DNA from: a virus
Virus record (IMG/VR): IMGVR_UViG_3300030380_003232
Location: 1-28,793 of that record
DNA: 28,793 nucleotides
Direction: 5' to 3' (one strand)
Below are positions 1,104 to 6,664 of the stretch, piece by piece. The translations under genes were made by a program, and so were the position numbers. The notes under the pieces are model-generated. The model did no database searches. It was given only the letters and a program-made list of their open reading frames with translations, and had not been told where the DNA came from. How positions within the stretch are numbered: position 1 is the first letter of the stretch; each line of letters begins with the position of its first letter.

Positions 1104-1245
1104 ACAACTAGCTTTTGATTTCGATGACTATGATGGACCTGATGAATTATGGTTGCTTTACTTGTGGGAAAAGACCCTATCAAGTCCATCAACTGTATCA
1201 ACTATCTCTCCCAAACATTCTTCTTTTCTAAATAAAGATCTATAA
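1027..1245 (+). CDS. possible small hypothetical protein overlapping the endolysin end
   Basis: This 72-codon frame overlaps the last 77 bases of the endolysin gene and the last 44 bases of the convergent gene on the other strand. Its middle part, RQLAFDFDDYDGPDELWLLY (residues 26-45), looks protein-like and uses codons like the neighbours (AGA, GAT, GAA, TTA), while the N-terminal and C-terminal parts are low in information. AGAGG at 1013-1017 is a usable ribosome binding site for ATG 1027; an inner ATG lies at 1075. I recognise no family. It may be a real small late gene or a chance frame in the convergent gap. Confidence 0.35.
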   Translation: MTTSTQDEKNQDVRSLMDLTSNITPRQLAFDFDDYDGPDELWLLYLWEKTLSSPSTVSTISPKHSSFLNKDL

Positions 1246-1414
1246 TCGTATCAAAGTTATTTGGTTTTCGAGGGGGAACTGTTGAATAAATATTGTATGC
1301 TTCAAAGCATCTATTCTGATTATATACTTTTCTCGAGAGCTCTTCACATTGTCTTGCAGATTCAAGATCAATAGTAAGCATAAGTATTACTGTGTGTGTC
1401 ATTTCTGTAAACAT
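1202..1414 (-). CDS. small hypothetical protein
   Basis: A 70-residue protein (or 66 if it starts at the inner ATG, MTHTVILMLTIDLESARQ). The N-terminus looks like a beta strand followed by an amphipathic helix rich in Glu and Arg, as in many ferredoxin-like folds, but I do not recognise the family. AGGAT stands about nine bases before ATG 1414. It lies downstream of the hairpin/T-tract at 1428-1475, so it would be expressed only by read-through of that terminator or from its own promoter. Its end overlaps a possible rightward frame. Confidence 0.5.
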   Translation of the reverse strand: MFTEMTHTVILMLTIDLESARQCEELSRKVYNQNRCFEAYNIYSTVPPRKPNNFDTIIDLYLEKKNVWER

Positions 1415-1427
1415 AATTTTATCCTAG

Positions 1428-1475
1428 AAAAAAATGGCTGACAAGAATTGAAGGAAACATCGGATCTTGCCAGCC
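1428..1475 (-). terminator. intrinsic-terminator-like hairpin after the SSB gene
   Basis: Read on the minus strand, GGCTGGCAAG (1475-1466) pairs with CTTGTCAGCC (1445-1436) with one mismatch over ten positions, around a 20-base loop. It is followed by an A and then seven T (1434-1428). This is the form of a rho-independent terminator for the leftward operon, 33 bases after the SSB stop. The long loop and the single mismatch make it imperfect. One further gene starts just beyond it, so it may only attenuate. Confidence 0.55.
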
Positions 1476-1508
1476 AAGTTGAAGGGTAGTTTTTGGAGAA
1501 AGCATACC

Positions 1509-2009
1509 CTAGAATGGAATATCGTCGTCTTCTATTTGATTGTCAATAGGTTCAGGATTATTCTTTTGCTGAATATTTGTAACTGCAGACGTACCTTGAG
1601 TAAAATTATTAACTTGCAAACCTACTCCATCTTCATTGAGAAAGTATGCCATTCTTAATTCATTTCCCTCTGCTCTGCGTTTTGCTCGAGCAGAATCTAT
1701 CTCTGCTTTATCATCAGGATCGATGTAAGGTTCATTCCAGTTTTTCGGTAAGATAAAACCACCACTATAGATTGGTGCATTTTCTTTATCTGATTTGTTT
1801 GGAAATGCTACACCAACTCTTATATAGAGATAACGTCTAGCATTATTCTGATCTCCATTATAAACTTCTTTTATCAATGCAACTTTGTGTTTGTTTTGAT
1901 TTGCATCAAAGATATTTCCAGTAGCGGCAAGTTCAGTTTGCACCGAACCACCACTATCATTCTTAAATAACTTACCTTTGTTTTGGTTTTGATACACTAC
2001 TTTATCCAT
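1509..2009 (-). CDS. ssb: single-stranded DNA-binding protein (SSB-like)
   Basis: The 166-residue protein has a predicted beta-rich body (for example LYIRVGVAFPNK and the following strands), a Gln/Asn-rich linker near residues 140-155, and the acidic C-terminal tip IEDDDIPF. That tip is the hallmark used by bacterial and phage SSBs to recruit partner proteins. It probably coats ssDNA made by the neighbouring exonuclease and works with the ERF protein. ATG 2009 has AAGGAG seven bases upstream; an in-frame TTG at 2015 would sit too close to that site. The OB fold itself is not certain from sequence reading, so this rests mainly on the tail and the neighbours. It is the last main gene of the leftward operon before the terminator-like hairpin. 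Confidence 0.72.
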   Translation of the reverse strand: MDKVVYQNQNKGKLFKNDSGGSVQTELAATGNIFDANQNKHKVALIKEVYNGDQNNARRYLYIRVGVAFPNKSDKENAPIYSGGFILPKNWNEPYIDPDDKAEIDSARAKRRAEGNELRMAYFLNEDGVGLQVNNFTQGTSAVTNIQQKNNPEPIDNQIEDDDIPF

Positions 2010-2020
2010 TGTCAATCTCC

Positions 2021-2515
2021 TTATATCCAGTTTTGTGTATTGTGAGTTACTTTAGTAGATTGTGAAGCTTGTTGTTCAGGTGATGTTGGTTCACTACTAC
2101 TATTCCCATCATCATCTGTTTTTGGATCTGGTCTTAGATTTAGAATGGATTGAATCATATACCTACGCATATATGTAACTCCAGATCCTATTTGTTGCTG
2201 ACCTCTTTTAGTATCATCAACGCATGGTGCTTTACTTACAATCATTGTATCTGATGATAAGTGTCTGAACTCCATAATAAGTATTGGAATGAGTGTGCTA
2301 TTCATTTCTTGATAATCAAAGTATGAAAAACATACCACATCATTTTTAATTAGTAATGGTTCAATCTCATTCAATATATCTTCGAGCTTCATATATTTTG
2401 TTTGTGAACCATCAGTTCTTTTGAACTGTGGATTGCTACCTTTTTCTTCAATCTTTCCGATTGAGGATTTTACTTTGTTGAGTGCAGAATAAATATTTTC
2501 TTTAGCTTGTGCCAT
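2021..2515 (-). CDS. erf: ERF-family single-strand annealing protein
   Basis: A 164-residue protein matching the Erf recombinase family of phage annealing proteins. It shows the N-terminal helix IYSALNKVKSSIG, the core KYMKLEDILNEIEPLLIKND (residues 41-60) and the signature VTYMRRYMIQSILNLRPD (113-130), followed by a Ser/Gln/Thr-rich disordered tail. Such proteins anneal complementary ssDNA and, with an exonuclease, recombine or circularise phage DNA. The gene starts inside the end of the YqaJ-type exonuclease gene (14-base overlap), so exonuclease and annealing protein are co-translated as in lambda Exo/Bet pairs. Its start is preceded by the repeated cassette AAGGAGAAAGCAA. Confidence 0.88.
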   Translation of the reverse strand: MAQAKENIYSALNKVKSSIGKIEEKGSNPQFKRTDGSQTKYMKLEDILNEIEPLLIKNDVVCFSYFDYQEMNSTLIPILIMEFRHLSSDTMIVSKAPCVDDTKRGQQQIGSGVTYMRRYMIQSILNLRPDPKTDDDGNSSSEPTSPEQQASQSTKVTHNTQNWI

Positions 2516-3332
2516 TTGCTTTCTCCTTAATTGTTATAGTTCGTCTTTTATTTGATTGTTTAATAAGTATATCATCATTATAAATTTCTGCATCATCTTC
2601 ATTCAAACTATTTAGTAATTCTTTTTTTACTTCGAGATGAGTATCATGCTGTGTTTTTGTTTCGATATATTTATCAGATAACATTTTGAAATGATTGTTT
2701 GCACACAGATCTCTCTTTACTTTCTGATCTATCTTGATTGCATCTTGATTAGTATCAAACGAATCATAATCTTTTGGTTCAATACCTCTTTCAATATGTT
2801 CCCAAAAATCTTGCATCTTATCGAGCAGTAACATTACATAAGAATGATTGTACTCGATAGTTGATGTTTGAATATCATTGCCATGTATTGCAGAGAATAT
2901 AAGCTTATCAGTTTCATGACTACATAATGCTAAGTAGAATTGAATCTGCGGCATATAGTATTGAATCATCTTATCCTGATTCTGAAATCCTCTTGTATGT
3001 TTTGCTTCGAATACATACTTCTCATTAGTCTGTGTATTCTTTATGATTGCATCAACATGACCTCGATAAATAATCTTAATCATGTTTTCAGCTCCAGGCA
3101 TTGCAAAAGCTTTTTCTTCTGCTTCAATCTCGCAATGTGGATTCTGTTTTATAAACCAATCAAGATTAAATTTTTGTGTGAATACACCTAACTGAACTCT
3201 GAATACATTAGAGAGATCCTCGACCTCTACTAATTTTTTCTTCTCTCGATACAGTTGATTCCATTTACCTTGCATGATCTTAACTGCATCAGATCCACCC
3301 ATTACTTTACATCTATCATCATCAAGAAACAT
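2502..3332 (-). CDS. YqaJ-like viral recombinase / alkaline exonuclease
   Basis: A 276-residue protein of the YqaJ/lambda-exonuclease PD-(D/E)XK group, expected to resect DNA ends 5' to 3' and hand ssDNA to the ERF protein. Visible motifs are MGGSDAVKIM (about residues 11-20), GHVDAII (91-97, catalytic D94), FEAKHT (E109-x-K111) and QIQFYLAL, the conserved helix. At the site where relatives usually have Glu in a LG...E motif, this protein has LGVFTQKFN, i.e. Gln. The start at ATG 3332 follows AGGAGAAAGCAA; an upstream in-frame TTG at 3350 would place the binding site inside the gene. The C-terminus ends KEKANGTS because it overlaps the start cassette of the next gene. Confidence 0.85.
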   Translation of the reverse strand: MFLDDDRCKVMGGSDAVKIMQGKWNQLYREKKKLVEVEDLSNVFRVQLGVFTQKFNLDWFIKQNPHCEIEAEEKAFAMPGAENMIKIIYRGHVDAIIKNTQTNEKYVFEAKHTRGFQNQDKMIQYYMPQIQFYLALCSHETDKLIFSAIHGNDIQTSTIEYNHSYVMLLLDKMQDFWEHIERGIEPKDYDSFDTNQDAIKIDQKVKRDLCANNHFKMLSDKYIETKTQHDTHLEVKKELLNSLNEDDAEIYNDDILIKQSNKRRTITIKEKANGTS

Positions 3333-3894
3333 TTGCTTTCTCCTCTTCAATATATTTGTTTACGAACTTTTTGGTACTGGTTAAGAAGTGTACTCGATAT
3401 GCTTTTTCGTTTTTATACATATCGTTTATTTGGAATAGTGTGGGTTTATACAACCAAGTTTTTTTACTCTCGATAGTTATTGCTCTTGCAATATCCAATG
3501 GCATATCAGCTAACTCTTGAATAACTTCTTGTAATCTTATATCCATATCATGTTTGGTATGATCTCGAGGGTTGTTGAAACAACACCACCATCTTTTGAG
3601 ATTCTCTTCATACTTAATTGTATCGAGCTTGATATGAAACTTGAGCATCTCTTTATATAGATTCATTGCTGATTCTAGATTGTCACATTTAAGAATATGA
3701 TTTTCATAACTACACCCTTTGATCACGTTTGGTGTGTTCATCATTATCTCATTGATTTCTTTTGGATCTGAACTGAGAAGAATAACTTTAGCGGCATTAA
3801 CTTCTTCTTGTGTTAGTTCAGGTAATGAAAAGGTGACCTCTTCTGGTTTTCTTTTTGTTCCGAAAAAATGTACGTTATCTGATAGATCATTCAT
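3322..3894 (-). CDS. hypothetical protein, possibly replication/loader-like
   Basis: The 190-residue protein is unrecognised by strong motif. The N-terminal third is polar. A central KRWWCCFNNP stretch (about 100-109) is followed by a helical part with LADMPLDIARAITIESKKTW and then KPTLFQINDMY. The latter is loosely like the 'wPtlaEL' end of small phage proteins found beside helicase loaders and replisome organisers; that link is a weak inference. It begins with ATGA overlapping the stop of the resolvase gene and ends 10 bases inside the exonuclease gene, so it sits in the middle of the recombination cluster. Its C-terminus EEEKANVS contains the translated start cassette of the next gene. Confidence 0.6.
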   Translation of the reverse strand: MNDLSDNVHFFGTKRKPEEVTFSLPELTQEEVNAAKVILLSSDPKEINEIMMNTPNVIKGCSYENHILKCDNLESAMNLYKEMLKFHIKLDTIKYEENLKRWWCCFNNPRDHTKHDMDIRLQEVIQELADMPLDIARAITIESKKTWLYKPTLFQINDMYKNEKAYRVHFLTSTKKFVNKYIEEEKANVS

Positions 3895-4280
3895 TTGCTT
3901 TCTCCTTTTACAATGCTCGTATTTATATAGACGTCGTAGTCTTGAGCTTTTTTTATTATTGGTATTATTGTTTCTTCAAATACCTTGTCGCTGATTATAA
4001 CACAATATCGTGGATCTCCAATCTTTCTTTTACACAATGCAACATCTCGATCCTCGAGCAGATTGAATACGTTTGGGAAGTTGGATTTATCTCTATACTT
4101 TACCTCAACAAAAAGATTCTTGTCTTTGTATAGGTCTATATTCCAAAGAAGATCTGCTTTGTATTCACCACCCAATGAACCTGATAATGGTTGTTTCTTG
4201 ATTCTTAATCCAAGTGATTGAAATAATTTGAGGAACCATCTTTCGTGATAGCTCCCCTTGTTTTTGCTTTTGCTTGCCAT
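3891..4280 (-). CDS. PD-(D/E)XK nuclease, putative Holliday junction resolvase (Hjc-like)
   Basis: A 129-residue protein with the restriction-endonuclease fold pattern of archaeal-type Hjc/phage resolvases: KGSYHERWFLKLFQSLG (E13 in the first helix), GGEYKADLLW (D43) and LFVEVKYRDK (E59-x-K61), then a region for the last strand and helix (YCVIISD). It would cut branched DNA produced by recombination or clear junctions before packaging. A GTG start three bases earlier is possible, but ATG 4280 overlaps the previous TGA by one base (TGATG), which suggests coupling. The gene lies between a small HTH protein and an unknown protein in the recombination operon. The nuclease fold is fairly sure; the junction specificity is inferred. 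Confidence 0.75.
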   Translation of the reverse strand: MASKSKNKGSYHERWFLKLFQSLGLRIKKQPLSGSLGGEYKADLLWNIDLYKDKNLFVEVKYRDKSNFPNVFNLLEDRDVALCKRKIGDPRYCVIISDKVFEETIIPIIKKAQDYDVYINTSIVKGESK

Positions 4281-4510
4281 CACATACCATTCTCTTTCAT
4301 CTTCTCTATATTTATTTCTTTAGATAAGACATTGATTTGTTGAGCTATTTTCTCTGCATTTGCTAGACTTATTTCAACTTCAGGATTCATTTTAAAATTT
4401 CTATGATAAGAACTATAGGGTATACCGGCCCACCTATATGCTTTTTTCATATCCACTTTGTTTGGGTAAGCTAATTCGAGAAGTTGTTTTTTGTAACTTT
4501 TTATCAGCAT
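4280..4510 (-). CDS. small helix-turn-helix protein, putative regulator
   Basis: This 76-residue protein has a likely Cro/XRE-like HTH: MKKAYRWAGIPYSSYHRN (about 21-38), with the typical 'aGip.Sty.R' turn and recognition helix, then SLANAEKIAQQINVL (about 48-62) as the closing helix. It would bind DNA and might regulate the early operon. AAAGGAG precedes ATG 4510 by seven bases, and the start lies inside the end of the preceding wHTH-like gene (77-base overlap). The stop is shared with the resolvase start. The family is identified by pattern only; a replication-initiation or structural role is also possible. Confidence 0.6.
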   Translation of the reverse strand: MLIKSYKKQLLELAYPNKVDMKKAYRWAGIPYSSYHRNFKMNPEVEISLANAEKIAQQINVLSKEINIEKMKENGM

Positions 4511-4877
4511 TATTTTTCTCCTTTGCTTCTAATAATTTTTGATTAATAATCTGTTCCCCATGCCAGTTGTATGCGTACTCTCTAATTTTTTCAGGACAAT
4601 GTTTATGCTCTCCTGAAGAATAGATATGAGTTTTAGAATAATACTCTCTTGATACAATGTATCCTTTGCCATACTCGAGAACATTAAGAACAGAACTGAT
4701 AGTTGATTTTGGTTTTGATCCGAACCATTTTTCATACATTGCATGAATCTCTTTTGATGTTGAGCCTAGTTTTTTTCCTTTTTCCTGAAAGATTGCGTAC
4801 ATACATAAGAGCACTCGTTCTTGATCGCCGCTTCCCTTTGATTTGAATCTGCCATTTTTATTTCTGATTCTATTCAT
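4434..4877 (-). CDS. winged-helix-like hypothetical protein
   Basis: A 147-residue basic protein. Residues about 20-75 suggest a winged helix: a helix (ERVLLCMYAIFQE), a second with STSKEIHAMYEKWF, the recognition-like helix KSTISSVLNVLEYGKGYI, and a wing (VSREYYSKTHIYSSGE). The C-terminal 50 residues are charged, Lys-rich and probably helical. It resembles no named family that I can place; DNA binding in replication or control is inferred. The start carries the cassette variant AAGGAGAAAGTAA. Its last 25 codons overlap the next HTH gene, an unusually long overlap for this operon. Confidence 0.6.
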   Translation of the reverse strand: MNRIRNKNGRFKSKGSGDQERVLLCMYAIFQEKGKKLGSTSKEIHAMYEKWFGSKPKSTISSVLNVLEYGKGYIVSREYYSKTHIYSSGEHKHCPEKIREYAYNWHGEQIINQKLLEAKEKNNADKKLQKTTSRISLPKQSGYEKSI

Positions 4878-4888
4878 TTACTTTCTCC

Positions 4889-5209
4889 TTAAAATAATTC
4901 TTGTTGTTGTGGTTCATCGCCCAGTTTTTCTTTTAACTCGTTAATAAATTCTTCATCGCTAATTTCTTTATCGCAATGAGTAGTACCACCATAATATTTT
5001 GATTTCCTTGCAATCATATAAGATCTGTATCCAGTTTCTGTAAGTTTGCTTTTTGCTTTCTTTCCATTCGAATCGAAAACTTCGAGAACAAAATGATCGA
5101 CAACGTAAGGCATACCACTCTCTGAATATCTTAAATAATCTCTGCTTACTTTGACTGTGTGGCACAAGTTATGCCACACAATCTTTCCAATGGTTTTATA
5201 TTCATGCAT
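4889..5209 (-). CDS. hypothetical protein
   Basis: A 106-residue protein if started at ATG 5209, which overlaps the previous stop by eight bases; in-frame ATGs at 5218 and 5242 would extend it. No clear Shine-Dalgarno site is present, so translation probably depends on coupling to the gene before it. The sequence has a beta-rich centre (YVVDHFVLEVFDSNG) and ends with an acidic helix and DEPQQQELF, a short tail reminiscent of protein-interaction tails such as the clamp- or SSB-binding peptides of replication proteins. That reading is speculative. The family is not recognised. Confidence 0.55.
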   Translation of the reverse strand: MHEYKTIGKIVWHNLCHTVKVSRDYLRYSESGMPYVVDHFVLEVFDSNGKKAKSKLTETGYRSYMIARKSKYYGGTTHCDKEISDEEFINELKEKLGDEPQQQELF

Positions 5210-5483
5210 CGGGATCATTACCAATATTGTTAAGATCTGCAACGCTGTTGAAGTAAACTAGAATTTCATCGAGTGAACTAATTGCAACTCGTAAATTTAT
5301 TTCGATTGGATTTGATTTTCCGTTACAAGTTTTTTCTAAGTTCTGAAATTCAGGAGATCTCAAAAGTAATTCAAGACCTCCTCGAGTTGTATTCAAATAA
5401 TTGTATACTGAACTAGAACCCAAATGTCGTAATACTTCAACTGCATTTGGATTTTCTCCCAATAATTTAATAACTTTATTCAT
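5202..5483 (-). CDS. hypothetical protein
   Basis: A 93-residue, mainly helical protein with no recognised motif. It begins MNKVIKLLGENPNAVEVLRH and contains TRGGLELLLRSPEFQNL and a C-terminal helix SLDEILVYFNSVADL. The start at 5483 follows AAGGAGAAAGCAAACA, i.e. the cassette with two extra bases. It overlaps the wHTH-like gene before it by eight bases and the next gene by eight bases. Position inside the early operon suggests an auxiliary early function; nothing more can be said. Confidence 0.55.
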   Translation of the reverse strand: MNKVIKLLGENPNAVEVLRHLGSSSVYNYLNTTRGGLELLLRSPEFQNLEKTCNGKSNPIEINLRVAISSLDEILVYFNSVADLNNIGNDPDA

Positions 5484-5829
5484 TGTTTGCTTTCTCCTTA
5501 TAAAAGTTTCTATCTTTAATGTGGTAAAACTTATTGATCATTTTATCTGCTTCACCATCTAGCCAATTTCCTGAGATCTCAGCGTTTATTGTCTGCTCTA
5601 ATTGTCTTTCTAAATAAGATCTCAAAAAATATCTTGCGTGTTTCTTGCCCTTTGTTTTTTCAATAACTGGCACAAACTTTTCATTATGTTCCTCGTTCAA
5701 ATCAGAAACTATTTTTCTTAGCTCAGTTGTTTTGAATATCCTCAAAGCATCTAGGGTGGTTAACCCTAGATGATATGTTGATGAACCATTAAGAAATTCA
5801 AAGACTTGTTGCTTGATTGACTTACTCAT
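5476..5829 (-). CDS. helix-turn-helix (HTH_39-like) hypothetical protein
   Basis: The 117-residue protein opens with a small winged-helix pattern: KQQVFEFLNG, then LTTLDALRIFKTTELRKIVS (about 22-41), then a wing KFVPVIEKTKGKKHARYFL. This layout (iT..eAl..f...rl...i..L) matches short phage HTH domains often called HTH_39, thought to bind DNA. The C-terminal helix is of unknown role. The start is preceded by AGGAGGGAAAGCAA. The protein ends YKEKANNE, where KEKAN is the translated start cassette of the next gene. Regulation of early genes is possible but inferred only. Confidence 0.6.
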   Translation of the reverse strand: MSKSIKQQVFEFLNGSSTYHLGLTTLDALRIFKTTELRKIVSDLNEEHNEKFVPVIEKTKGKKHARYFLRSYLERQLEQTINAEISGNWLDGEADKMINKFYHIKDRNFYKEKANNE

Positions 5830-5841
5830 TTGCTTTCCCTC

Positions 5842-6165
5842 CTATGAACAAATAAAAATATAATCATGATTCTTTGCGTCATATGTAAAAGAATGAATGA
5901 CAGCATCTTGAATATTTGGAATCCCATTTTTTCGATAGTCATTCCATTTCTTCAAAACAGCTTGAGCTGATACTAAATAATTTTCATTATGATTAGTTGA
6001 ATAATCCCAGTCATGAATTTTAGAAATAAAAAACCTATCATCTTTTTGTATGGTGGCTTTGATCCTCGAGCCTTTATAGTCAGTCGGGCCGTAATATCTA
6101 CAACGGATCATTACTCCAGTTTTTAATTGATGAAATTCTTTAGATAACATTTCGTGTCTGGTCAT
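5842..6165 (-). CDS. hypothetical phage protein (GPTDYKGSR motif)
   Basis: A 107-residue protein with TGVMIRCRYYGPTDYKGSRI near residues 16-35 and a later NENYLVSAQAVLKKW helix. Small phage proteins with a similar 'Y.GPT...GSRIkA' start and a 'N...AA..l..k' helix are common and of unknown function. I chose ATG 6165 because it has the full cassette (AAGGAGAAAGCA). The frame stays open upstream to ATG 6237, which would add 24 residues (MAKIVQIREEDLPQW...) and begins one base after the stop of the membrane-protein gene, but has no binding site. Both forms may be made. Confidence 0.65.
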   Translation of the reverse strand: MTRHEMLSKEFHQLKTGVMIRCRYYGPTDYKGSRIKATIQKDDRFFISKIHDWDYSTNHNENYLVSAQAVLKKWNDYRKNGIPNIQDAVIHSFTYDAKNHDYIFICS

Positions 6166-6238
6166 TGCTTTCTCCTTATTGCGTTTAATTAACCATTGTG
6201 GAAGGTCTTCTTCTCTGATTTGTACGATCTTTGCCATA

Positions 6239-6397
6239 TCAAATACCAAAGAATAAAAGACCAACTGTCATAACCATTCCACAAAAGAGAATGATATATT
6301 TCATAATCTTAACAGCTAAACTTTCTTGGGTTTCGTCTAGGATTTGGACAAGTAGTCTTGCCCTCCTCCTAGCCTTTCGAGAACGTACCCTACTCAT
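6239..6397 (-). CDS. small Arg-rich single-pass membrane protein
   Basis: A 52-residue protein with a strongly basic N-terminus (MSRVRSRKARRRARLL), a short polar part and one hydrophobic segment at about 33-50 (KYIILFCGMVMTVGLLFF). The positive-inside rule places the basic end in the cytoplasm. ATG 6397 overlaps the previous stop as ATGA, which favours it over the in-frame ATG at 6421; no strong Shine-Dalgarno site is seen. Small membrane proteins at the start of early phage operons sometimes target host functions, but no family is recognised here. Confidence 0.5.
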   Translation of the reverse strand: MSRVRSRKARRRARLLVQILDETQESLAVKIMKYIILFCGMVMTVGLLFFGI

Positions 6398-6597
6398 AAT
6401 GTAACCTTGAGAGTTTTCCACAATCTAGAACAACCAAAAATATGTATATCTGTTTTACCCTCTTTTCTTGTTTCGATATATTCAAGGGTATTCAAGCCGT
6501 AGGAATCTATCCAATTTTCCATAATATCTTTATTAGGAATAAGAACCCTATCCCATAACAGACCCAACATTTTCTCATTGATAGTTAAATTAAGCAT
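6394..6597 (-). CDS. small hypothetical protein, first gene of the leftward operon
   Basis: A 67-residue protein (MLNLTINEKMLGLLWDRVLI...) with no recognised motif; it contains several Trp residues and a central acidic helix (NWIDSYGLNTLEYIETRK). It is the most promoter-proximal gene of the leftward set and starts with the cassette variant TGGAGAAAGCTAA, so it is likely expressed very early. It couples by ATGA to the membrane protein that follows. Confidence 0.6.
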   Translation of the reverse strand: MLNLTINEKMLGLLWDRVLIPNKDIMENWIDSYGLNTLEYIETRKEGKTDIHIFGCSRLWKTLKVTL

Positions 6598-6664
6598 TTA
6601 GCTTTCTCCATTATTGTTTTTATTACTAAGATTTTACAGCAAAAACAAAATAAAGAAAAGTATT

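Follow-up and report, generated by a model that had tools for sequence, protein, structure and literature searches.

What reads a start sequence that a phage repeats before most genes of one operon? The question is raised by the IMG/VR virus record IMGVR_UViG_3300030380_003232, of which the 28,793 nucleotides (nt) analysed are called the window here. A cassette, (A)AGGAGAAAGCAA, stands at the starts of eight leftward early genes. A preliminary description of the sequence had proposed that a protein, a small RNA or a modified ribosome reads it as an operon-wide translational switch, or that it is short homology for gene swapping by the ERF annealing protein. A ninth copy was found in reverse orientation just 3' of the last recombination gene, which encodes an SSB-like protein. 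The stretch exposed there is the exact complement of the cassette and therefore a single RNA could silence the entire early programme at the level of translation. The cassette would be the target and the hairpin 3' of the SSB gene its reader. Probably, the Shine-Dalgarno (SD) sites of the recombination and replication genes are blocked by a phage RNA that arises at the 3' end of this operon.

The start cassette and its antisense copy

All eight copies exist, with small corrections to the coordinates first given (Table 1). The 13-mer AAGGAGAAAGCAA occurs four times exactly on the minus strand, and the same pattern read backwards does not occur. Two copies have one change (GAGGAG... at 3333-3345 and AAAGTAA at 4878-4890), one has two (6599-6611), and the copy at 5830-5843 carries extra G's, an insertion that is missed by an ungapped search. 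With up to three changes allowed, there were 34 matches in the window as compared with 16.1 +/- 3.7 in dinucleotide shuffles. The spacer had been described as conserved up to the ATG; it is uniform, but does not always adjoin the start codon, since ACA intervenes before the gene starting at 5483, and the copy at 6165 shares its final A with the ATG. As had also been noted, no rightward start in the window has the cassette. The only plus-strand GGAGAAAGC, at 1495-1503, lies away from any gene start and is the antisense element itself.

The loop of the element is held in a hairpin, and a second hairpin, GGCUGGCAAGA...UCUUGUCAGCC followed by AUUUUUUU (1475-1428), resembles an intrinsic terminator. 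Because a promoter-like site also precedes the loop, the element has the anatomy of an antisense RNA of about 84 nt. The promoter-like site scores 10/12, a value reached by about 1% of operon windows; the site is also present in the relative L227. The antisense element is present and its loop kept in 10 of 10 close relatives (L001-L010); in L008 the terminator stem is unchanged and the terminator loop is quite different. Searches of Rfam (4,227 families, by gathering threshold and by E-value) gave no family match for the element, and the sub-threshold matches were weak and mostly to eukaryotic small nucleolar RNA and microRNA families.

The loop region was also scored as a duplex against every 16-nt stretch of the window, on either strand. 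Its own complement ranked first, and the next seven sites were the cassettes at 6165, 5487, 3895, 3333, 2516, 6599 and 4878, with energies of -17.5 to -15.5 kcal/mol.

Table 1. Positions in the window of the cassettes, the antisense element and the associated genes
Feature	Position	Strand	Detail	Basis
Predicted antisense RNA, ~84 nt	1428..1511	-	hairpin 1 and intrinsic terminator, directly 3' of SSB-like gene	sequence and folding
Terminator-like hairpin	1428..1475	-	GGCUGGCAAGA...UCUUGUCAGCC-A-UUUUUUU	sequence and fold
Hairpin 1	1483..1510	-	AGGGUA - UGCUUUCUCCAAAAAC - UACCCU; stem overlaps SSB stop codon	sequence and fold
Antisense loop	1495..1504	-	UGCUUUCUCC, exact complement of GGAGAAAGCA	
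SSB-like gene	1509..2009	-	acidic tail DDDIPF; stop 1509-1511	~37% identity to L227 SSB over 78 residues
Promoter-like site	1518..1546	-	TTGACA-17-GATATT within SSB gene end; predicted start near 1511	10/12 matches
ERF single-strand annealing protein	2021..2515	-		Pfam PF04404 and PHROG 2324
RecE/YqaJ-like exonuclease gene	2502..3332	-		PHROG 434
Cassette before ERF gene	2516..2528	-	AAGGAGAAAGCAA	
Cassette before exonuclease gene	3333..3345	-	GAGGAGAAAGCAA	
Holliday-junction-resolvase-like gene	3891..4283	-	no cassette	PHROG 23036/244
Cassette before 190-residue gene	3895..3907	-	AAGGAGAAAGCAA	
Partial cassette before 76-residue gene	4511..4523	-	AAGGAGAAAAATA; 7 nt pair	
Cassette before 147-residue gene	4878..4890	-	AAGGAGAAAGTAA; C-to-U change still pairs via G-U	
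Cassette before 93-residue gene (start 5483)	5487..5499	-	AAGGAGAAAGCAA; three extra nt before ATG	
Variant cassette before 117-residue gene	5830..5843	-	AGGAGGGAAAGCAA; weaker pairing, -12.8 kcal/mol	
Cassette before 107-residue gene (start 6165)	6165..6177	-	AAGGAGAAAGCA(A)TG; relatives have AAAATG here	
Cassette before 67-residue gene, first of operon	6599..6611	-	ATGGAGAAAGCTA	

Matching of cassettes and loops across lineages

The same arrangement was found among terminase relatives with other cassettes (GGAGAACTA, GGAGAACCA, GGAGAACAC and GGAGAGAGT). Most of the sequences compared are metagenomic fragments. The lineage-specific cassettes GGAGAAAGC, GGAGAACTA, GGAGAACCA, GGAGAACAC and GGAGAACAR each have their own complement after the SSB stop, displayed on different stems. 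Spacer AACTA is found with loop TAGTTCTCC, AACCA with TGGTTCTCC, AACAC with GTGTTCTCC, AACAG with CTGTTCTCC and AAAGC with GCTTTCTCC. In the loci of 10-20 kb examined, the antisense copy is unique and, wherever the SSB stop was mapped, lies 12-27 nt past it. Three whole records with cassette GGAGAACTA (G001, G003 and G012) have it 8, 8 and 5 times in sense orientation and just once each in antisense. The antisense copy comes directly after the SSB stop; the stem of its hairpin is unrelated to that of the window, and a terminator-like hairpin follows. Between L217 and L219 the stem changes from AGCAGG/CCUGCU to AACAGG/CCUGUU, a compensatory pair.

Presence and absence of the two partners were compared in 33 of the 39 distinct 3' regions formed by the 80 loci from an SSB-anchored scan together with earlier loci, namely those with at least five SD sites. 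Loop and repeated cassette occurred together in 19, the loop alone in 2, the cassette alone in 2 and neither in 10 (Fisher p = 4e-5); SSB relatives without the hairpin mostly lack the repeated cassette too. The loop pairs with the dominant spacer of its own phage in 18 of 19 lineages, compared with a mean of 6.1 and a maximum of 14 when loops were randomly reassigned (20,000 permutations). Moreover, 96 starts were paired over at least 4 spacer nt as against 28.3 +/- 10.2 in permuted data (maximum 71, again 20,000 permutations). A later scan based on the exonuclease added 17 new 3' regions, and all nine new lineages with a cassette repeated at least three times fit the loop, six exactly and three with one G-U pair. 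When the exonuclease start was taken alone, a mean of 8.18 nt paired with the loop of the same phage, and 6.85 +/- 0.13 nt with shuffled loops. At two more orthologs, the replication-initiation-like gene and the gene after the exonuclease, the cassette is GGAGAACTA in L240, GGAGAACCA in L244 and GGAGAACAC in L308; none of these three has the full cassette at the SSB start.

On the exonuclease tree at least 14 cassette changes and at least 11 loop changes are needed, and both types switch repeatedly. This poses an evolutionary puzzle, as seven or eight starts and one loop switch jointly, and do so repeatedly, between relatives. It is not the case that GGAG alone is conserved while the spacer varies freely, since each phage has one uniform spacer, and a change of spacer always goes with a change of loop. 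Pairing of the loop with the cassette is strongly supported by these comparisons, as is the small-RNA form of the switch that the preliminary description had considered. Many marine phages, to judge from their sequences, place one cassette before most early genes and a matching small RNA at the end of the operon.

Some lineages carry more than one cassette. In L271/L224, GGAGAACTA and GGAGAACCA are mixed and the loop UGGUUCUCC pairs with both, with one of them via G-U. L282 has two cassette types (GGAGAACAA and GGAGGACAN) and two matching loops in a single element 3' of the SSB stop (position 5440), TTTGTTCTCC and, within the terminator hairpin loop, TTGTCCTCC. The terminator loops of L273 and L249 likewise carry CCTCC-type antisense stretches. 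A further pair, GGAGAACCG with CGGTTCTCC, was found in L328, a contig binned as Opitutae. In L305, L338, L368 and L370 a single C-to-U change (CUCU or CUUC) weakens the anti-GGAG part of the loop, so that one pair with every cassette is G-U; this is possibly a tuning of pairing strength. In one subgroup (L293, L295, L299, L307, L285, L274 and L288) the antisense stretch lies at a single-stranded 5' end, as in ordinary small RNAs, and the cassettes are more degenerate forms of GGAGAACNN. A promoter-like site lies just upstream of the stretch in most of this subgroup, including L293, L295, L299 and L307.

Repeated SD cassettes also occur elsewhere. In the unrelated phages G016-G029 (the records of L026, L036, L037, L050, L027, L089 and others, many with a GC content of 0.5-0.58) GGAGAAAGCAAATG is repeated before several genes and an antisense copy is mostly absent. 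The idea that repeated SD cassettes always come with an antisense partner was rejected, since in most unrelated phages carrying 2-6 copies of GGAGAAAGCA the whole record contains no such partner. A cassette cannot be taken as diagnostic from its sequence by itself, because AAGGAGAAAGCAAATG recurs in unrelated phages, mostly without an antisense copy.

Proposed action of the RNA and its alternatives

We infer that a short RNA of about 80-90 nt is either cut from the 3' end of the leftward operon or started at the promoter within the end of the SSB gene, and that it is made in the cell and stable there. Its exposed stretch, usually a hairpin loop, would pair over 9-10 nt, spanning SD and spacer, at each of eight early genes, including those of ERF and the exonuclease. 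The pairing would block binding of the 30S subunit, and translation of the recombination and replication genes would be shut down after the full operon has been transcribed. If the RNA is processed, it would appear only when transcription has reached the end of the operon and would thus act as a feedback or a timer. The SSB gene would escape because it lacks the full cassette, its start being AAGGAGATTGACA. In such a design with many starts and one RNA, one hairpin could control the whole early operon.

Several observations weigh against this mechanism. The eighth cassette (5830) ranks about 20th in the duplex scan at -12.8 kcal/mol, a weak pairing. The subgroup with the single-stranded 5' end has no loop display and only about 7-8 nt paired with most starts. 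A convincing sigma-70-like promoter is found in the window, L227, L271, L293/L295/L299/L307 and a few more, but not in most of the AACTA and AACCA phages; a general sigma-70 promoter for the RNA was accordingly rejected, and the RNA may be a processed 3' untranslated region (UTR). The permutation p-values overstate independence because the lineages share ancestry. Lastly, the independent pairs on the tree (2:0 and 4:0) show the right direction or no difference and are too few for significance.

The leftward block, from 6609 to about 1509, encodes ERF, the RecE/YqaJ-like exonuclease, a Holliday-resolvase-like protein and the protein with the SSB-type tail DDDIPF, for which a family search gave no match. 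The rightward block encodes the small and large terminase subunits, a head-tail connector, the major head protein, tail and internal virion proteins and an endolysin; with this gene content, the window is part of a short-tailed-phage-like genome. The 70-residue gene 3' of the terminator (1202-1414, minus strand) is 74% identical in L227 and had no match in a family search. A SAR11-like host is possible, given that the terminase shares 65% identity with its counterpart in Pelagibacter phage Hodr. Hodr itself was considered as a carrier and has no GGAGAAAGC cassette, only ordinary GGAGG-type starts. Among cultured phages only one weak SSB match was obtained, and phages of this kind are common in marine viral contigs and scarcely represented in culture.

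The possibility was considered that the same RNA is a superinfection or competition system, in which the RNA of a resident phage blocks co-infecting phages with the same cassette and escape requires a joint switch of cassette and loop. The several cassette/loop types among related phages and their repeated switching on the exonuclease tree are consistent with this, and the c4 RNA of phages sets P1/P7 heteroimmunity through loops that pair near the ribosome-binding site (PMC12197685). However, the RNA lies within the 3' end of the early operon itself, and feedback fits equally well; we regard a use in competition as unlikely.

Somewhat less probable still is a purely cis-acting 3' hairpin, which would pair with one start of its own mRNA and protect that start or set polarity, with no free RNA. 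The element does belong to the 3' UTR of the operon, and most AACTA and AACCA lineages have no separate promoter. Nevertheless, one loop cannot serve eight starts of one transcript simultaneously, and in the window lineage and a few others the promoter-like site is positioned to start at the element.

Two further explanations are very improbable. In one, the cassette is merely a favourable ribosome-binding site copied with genes, or homology for ERF swapping, and the antisense copy is incidental. It would suit the recurrence of AAGGAGAAAGCAAATG in unrelated phages described above and the fact that genes newly placed in relatives bear the same cassette. It gives no reason to expect a single antisense copy that invariably follows the same gene and precedes a terminator, displayed in a hairpin and covarying with the cassette of its own lineage, and late genes of the same genomes do not use the cassette. 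The covariation leaves incidental origin strongly disfavoured and ERF-mediated swapping unsupported as the main cause; likewise, a reading by the ribosome alone is disfavoured because the late genes lack the cassette, and a modified ribosome is not needed.

Nor is a protein needed to read the AAAGCAA part: repeated asymmetric sites in one orientation do resemble stoperators and the targets of RegA, so that a stoperator protein binding DNA, or a translational repressor like RegA, might read them, but the stems that display the antisense element vary and several cassette/loop changes retain pairing via G-U, which a DNA-binding protein leaves unexplained, even if the G-U excess (44:143 vs 28:276) comes partly from shared ancestry.

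Relation to known RNA regulators and repeated start sites

CU-rich loops of small RNAs such as Staphylococcus aureus RsaE target SD sites, and the element resembles these RNAs in having a loop complementary to the SD and a hairpin-plus-terminator anatomy. Whereas they read the generic SD of the host, the loop described here also reads the lineage-specific spacer, and the RNA would therefore be confined to the early genes of its own phage.

OppZ and CarZ of Vibrio cholerae are autoregulatory small RNAs derived from 3' UTRs (PMC7398697). The likeness would be a negative feedback in which the 3' end of an operon yields an RNA that pairs with its own transcript and inhibits translation. In the window and most lineages, the element lies at the 3' end of the operon and ends in a terminator-like hairpin, and its seed is complementary to ribosome-binding sites of the same operon; repression of the RNA's own operon would follow from SD occlusion. 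OppZ acts at a single intergenic site (oppA-oppB), whereas here a cassette at about 5-9 starts is involved, the RNA is phage-encoded and its seed coevolves with the cassette. The window lineage may use its own promoter instead of RNase processing.

In phages P1 and P7, the c4 antisense RNA blocks translation through loops that pair around a ribosome-binding site, and its lineage-specific pairing determines the immunity type (PMC12197685). Most lineages here similarly hold the antisense stretch in a loop directed at the region around the ribosome-binding site, and one subgroup holds it in a 5' single strand. While c4 has one target, the ant mRNA, many genes share the cassette here, and the RNA lies at the 3' end of a recombination and replication operon. 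No c4-type control of an antirepressor or of lysogeny was seen: the identified targets are ERF, the exonuclease and, in L240, the replication-initiation-like gene, and no antirepressor was identified among them.

A parallel in arrangement is the Start-Associated Sequence (SAS) of cluster K mycobacteriophages, a 13-bp asymmetric, AGGAG-containing sequence a few bp before 11-19 nonstructural genes, which is conserved beyond the part that pairs with 16S rRNA and of which K1 phages hold one reverse-orientation copy (PMC3203893). An asymmetric, SD-containing repeat in one orientation with a single reverse copy is found in both the window and phage Anaya. The window system works alike without being a member, as the SAS (GGGATAGGAGCCC) and the window cassette AAGGAGAAAGCAA have no sequence relation. 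In K1 phages the reverse SAS forms the apical loop CCUCCUAUCC of a conserved hairpin with compensatory stem changes, in a region left unannotated in several of these phages, and a conserved promoter-like block, TTGAC/TTGGC...TTTTAGACT, precedes it. The cluster K observations cover L313 (Mycobacterium phage Anaya, ~59760-60010), L314, L315, L318 and L319. In Bryler and Amgine the SAS is unchanged and the loop is a partial complement only (CUCCCUUCCC in Bryler), and Pixie has no hairpin loop. Cluster K was thus rejected as a clean second case, and K1, which fits, was kept as a lead only because the pattern fails across the cluster.

As a tentative and rather doubtful generalization, repeated cassettes with one antisense RNA might form a widespread, coevolving lock and key that gates the early programme in unrelated phages, both marine podovirus-like phages and, independently, K1 mycobacteriophages. 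As lineages switch lock and key together, the pair would also act as a type of RNA immunity between competing phages. No earlier description of the cassette/antisense-RNA pairing was found in the open-licence literature searched. A cassette and its loop would make a ready-made orthogonal translational switch, and the hairpin is a concrete candidate for what reads start sequences repeated in phages, of which the SAS was described in 2011.

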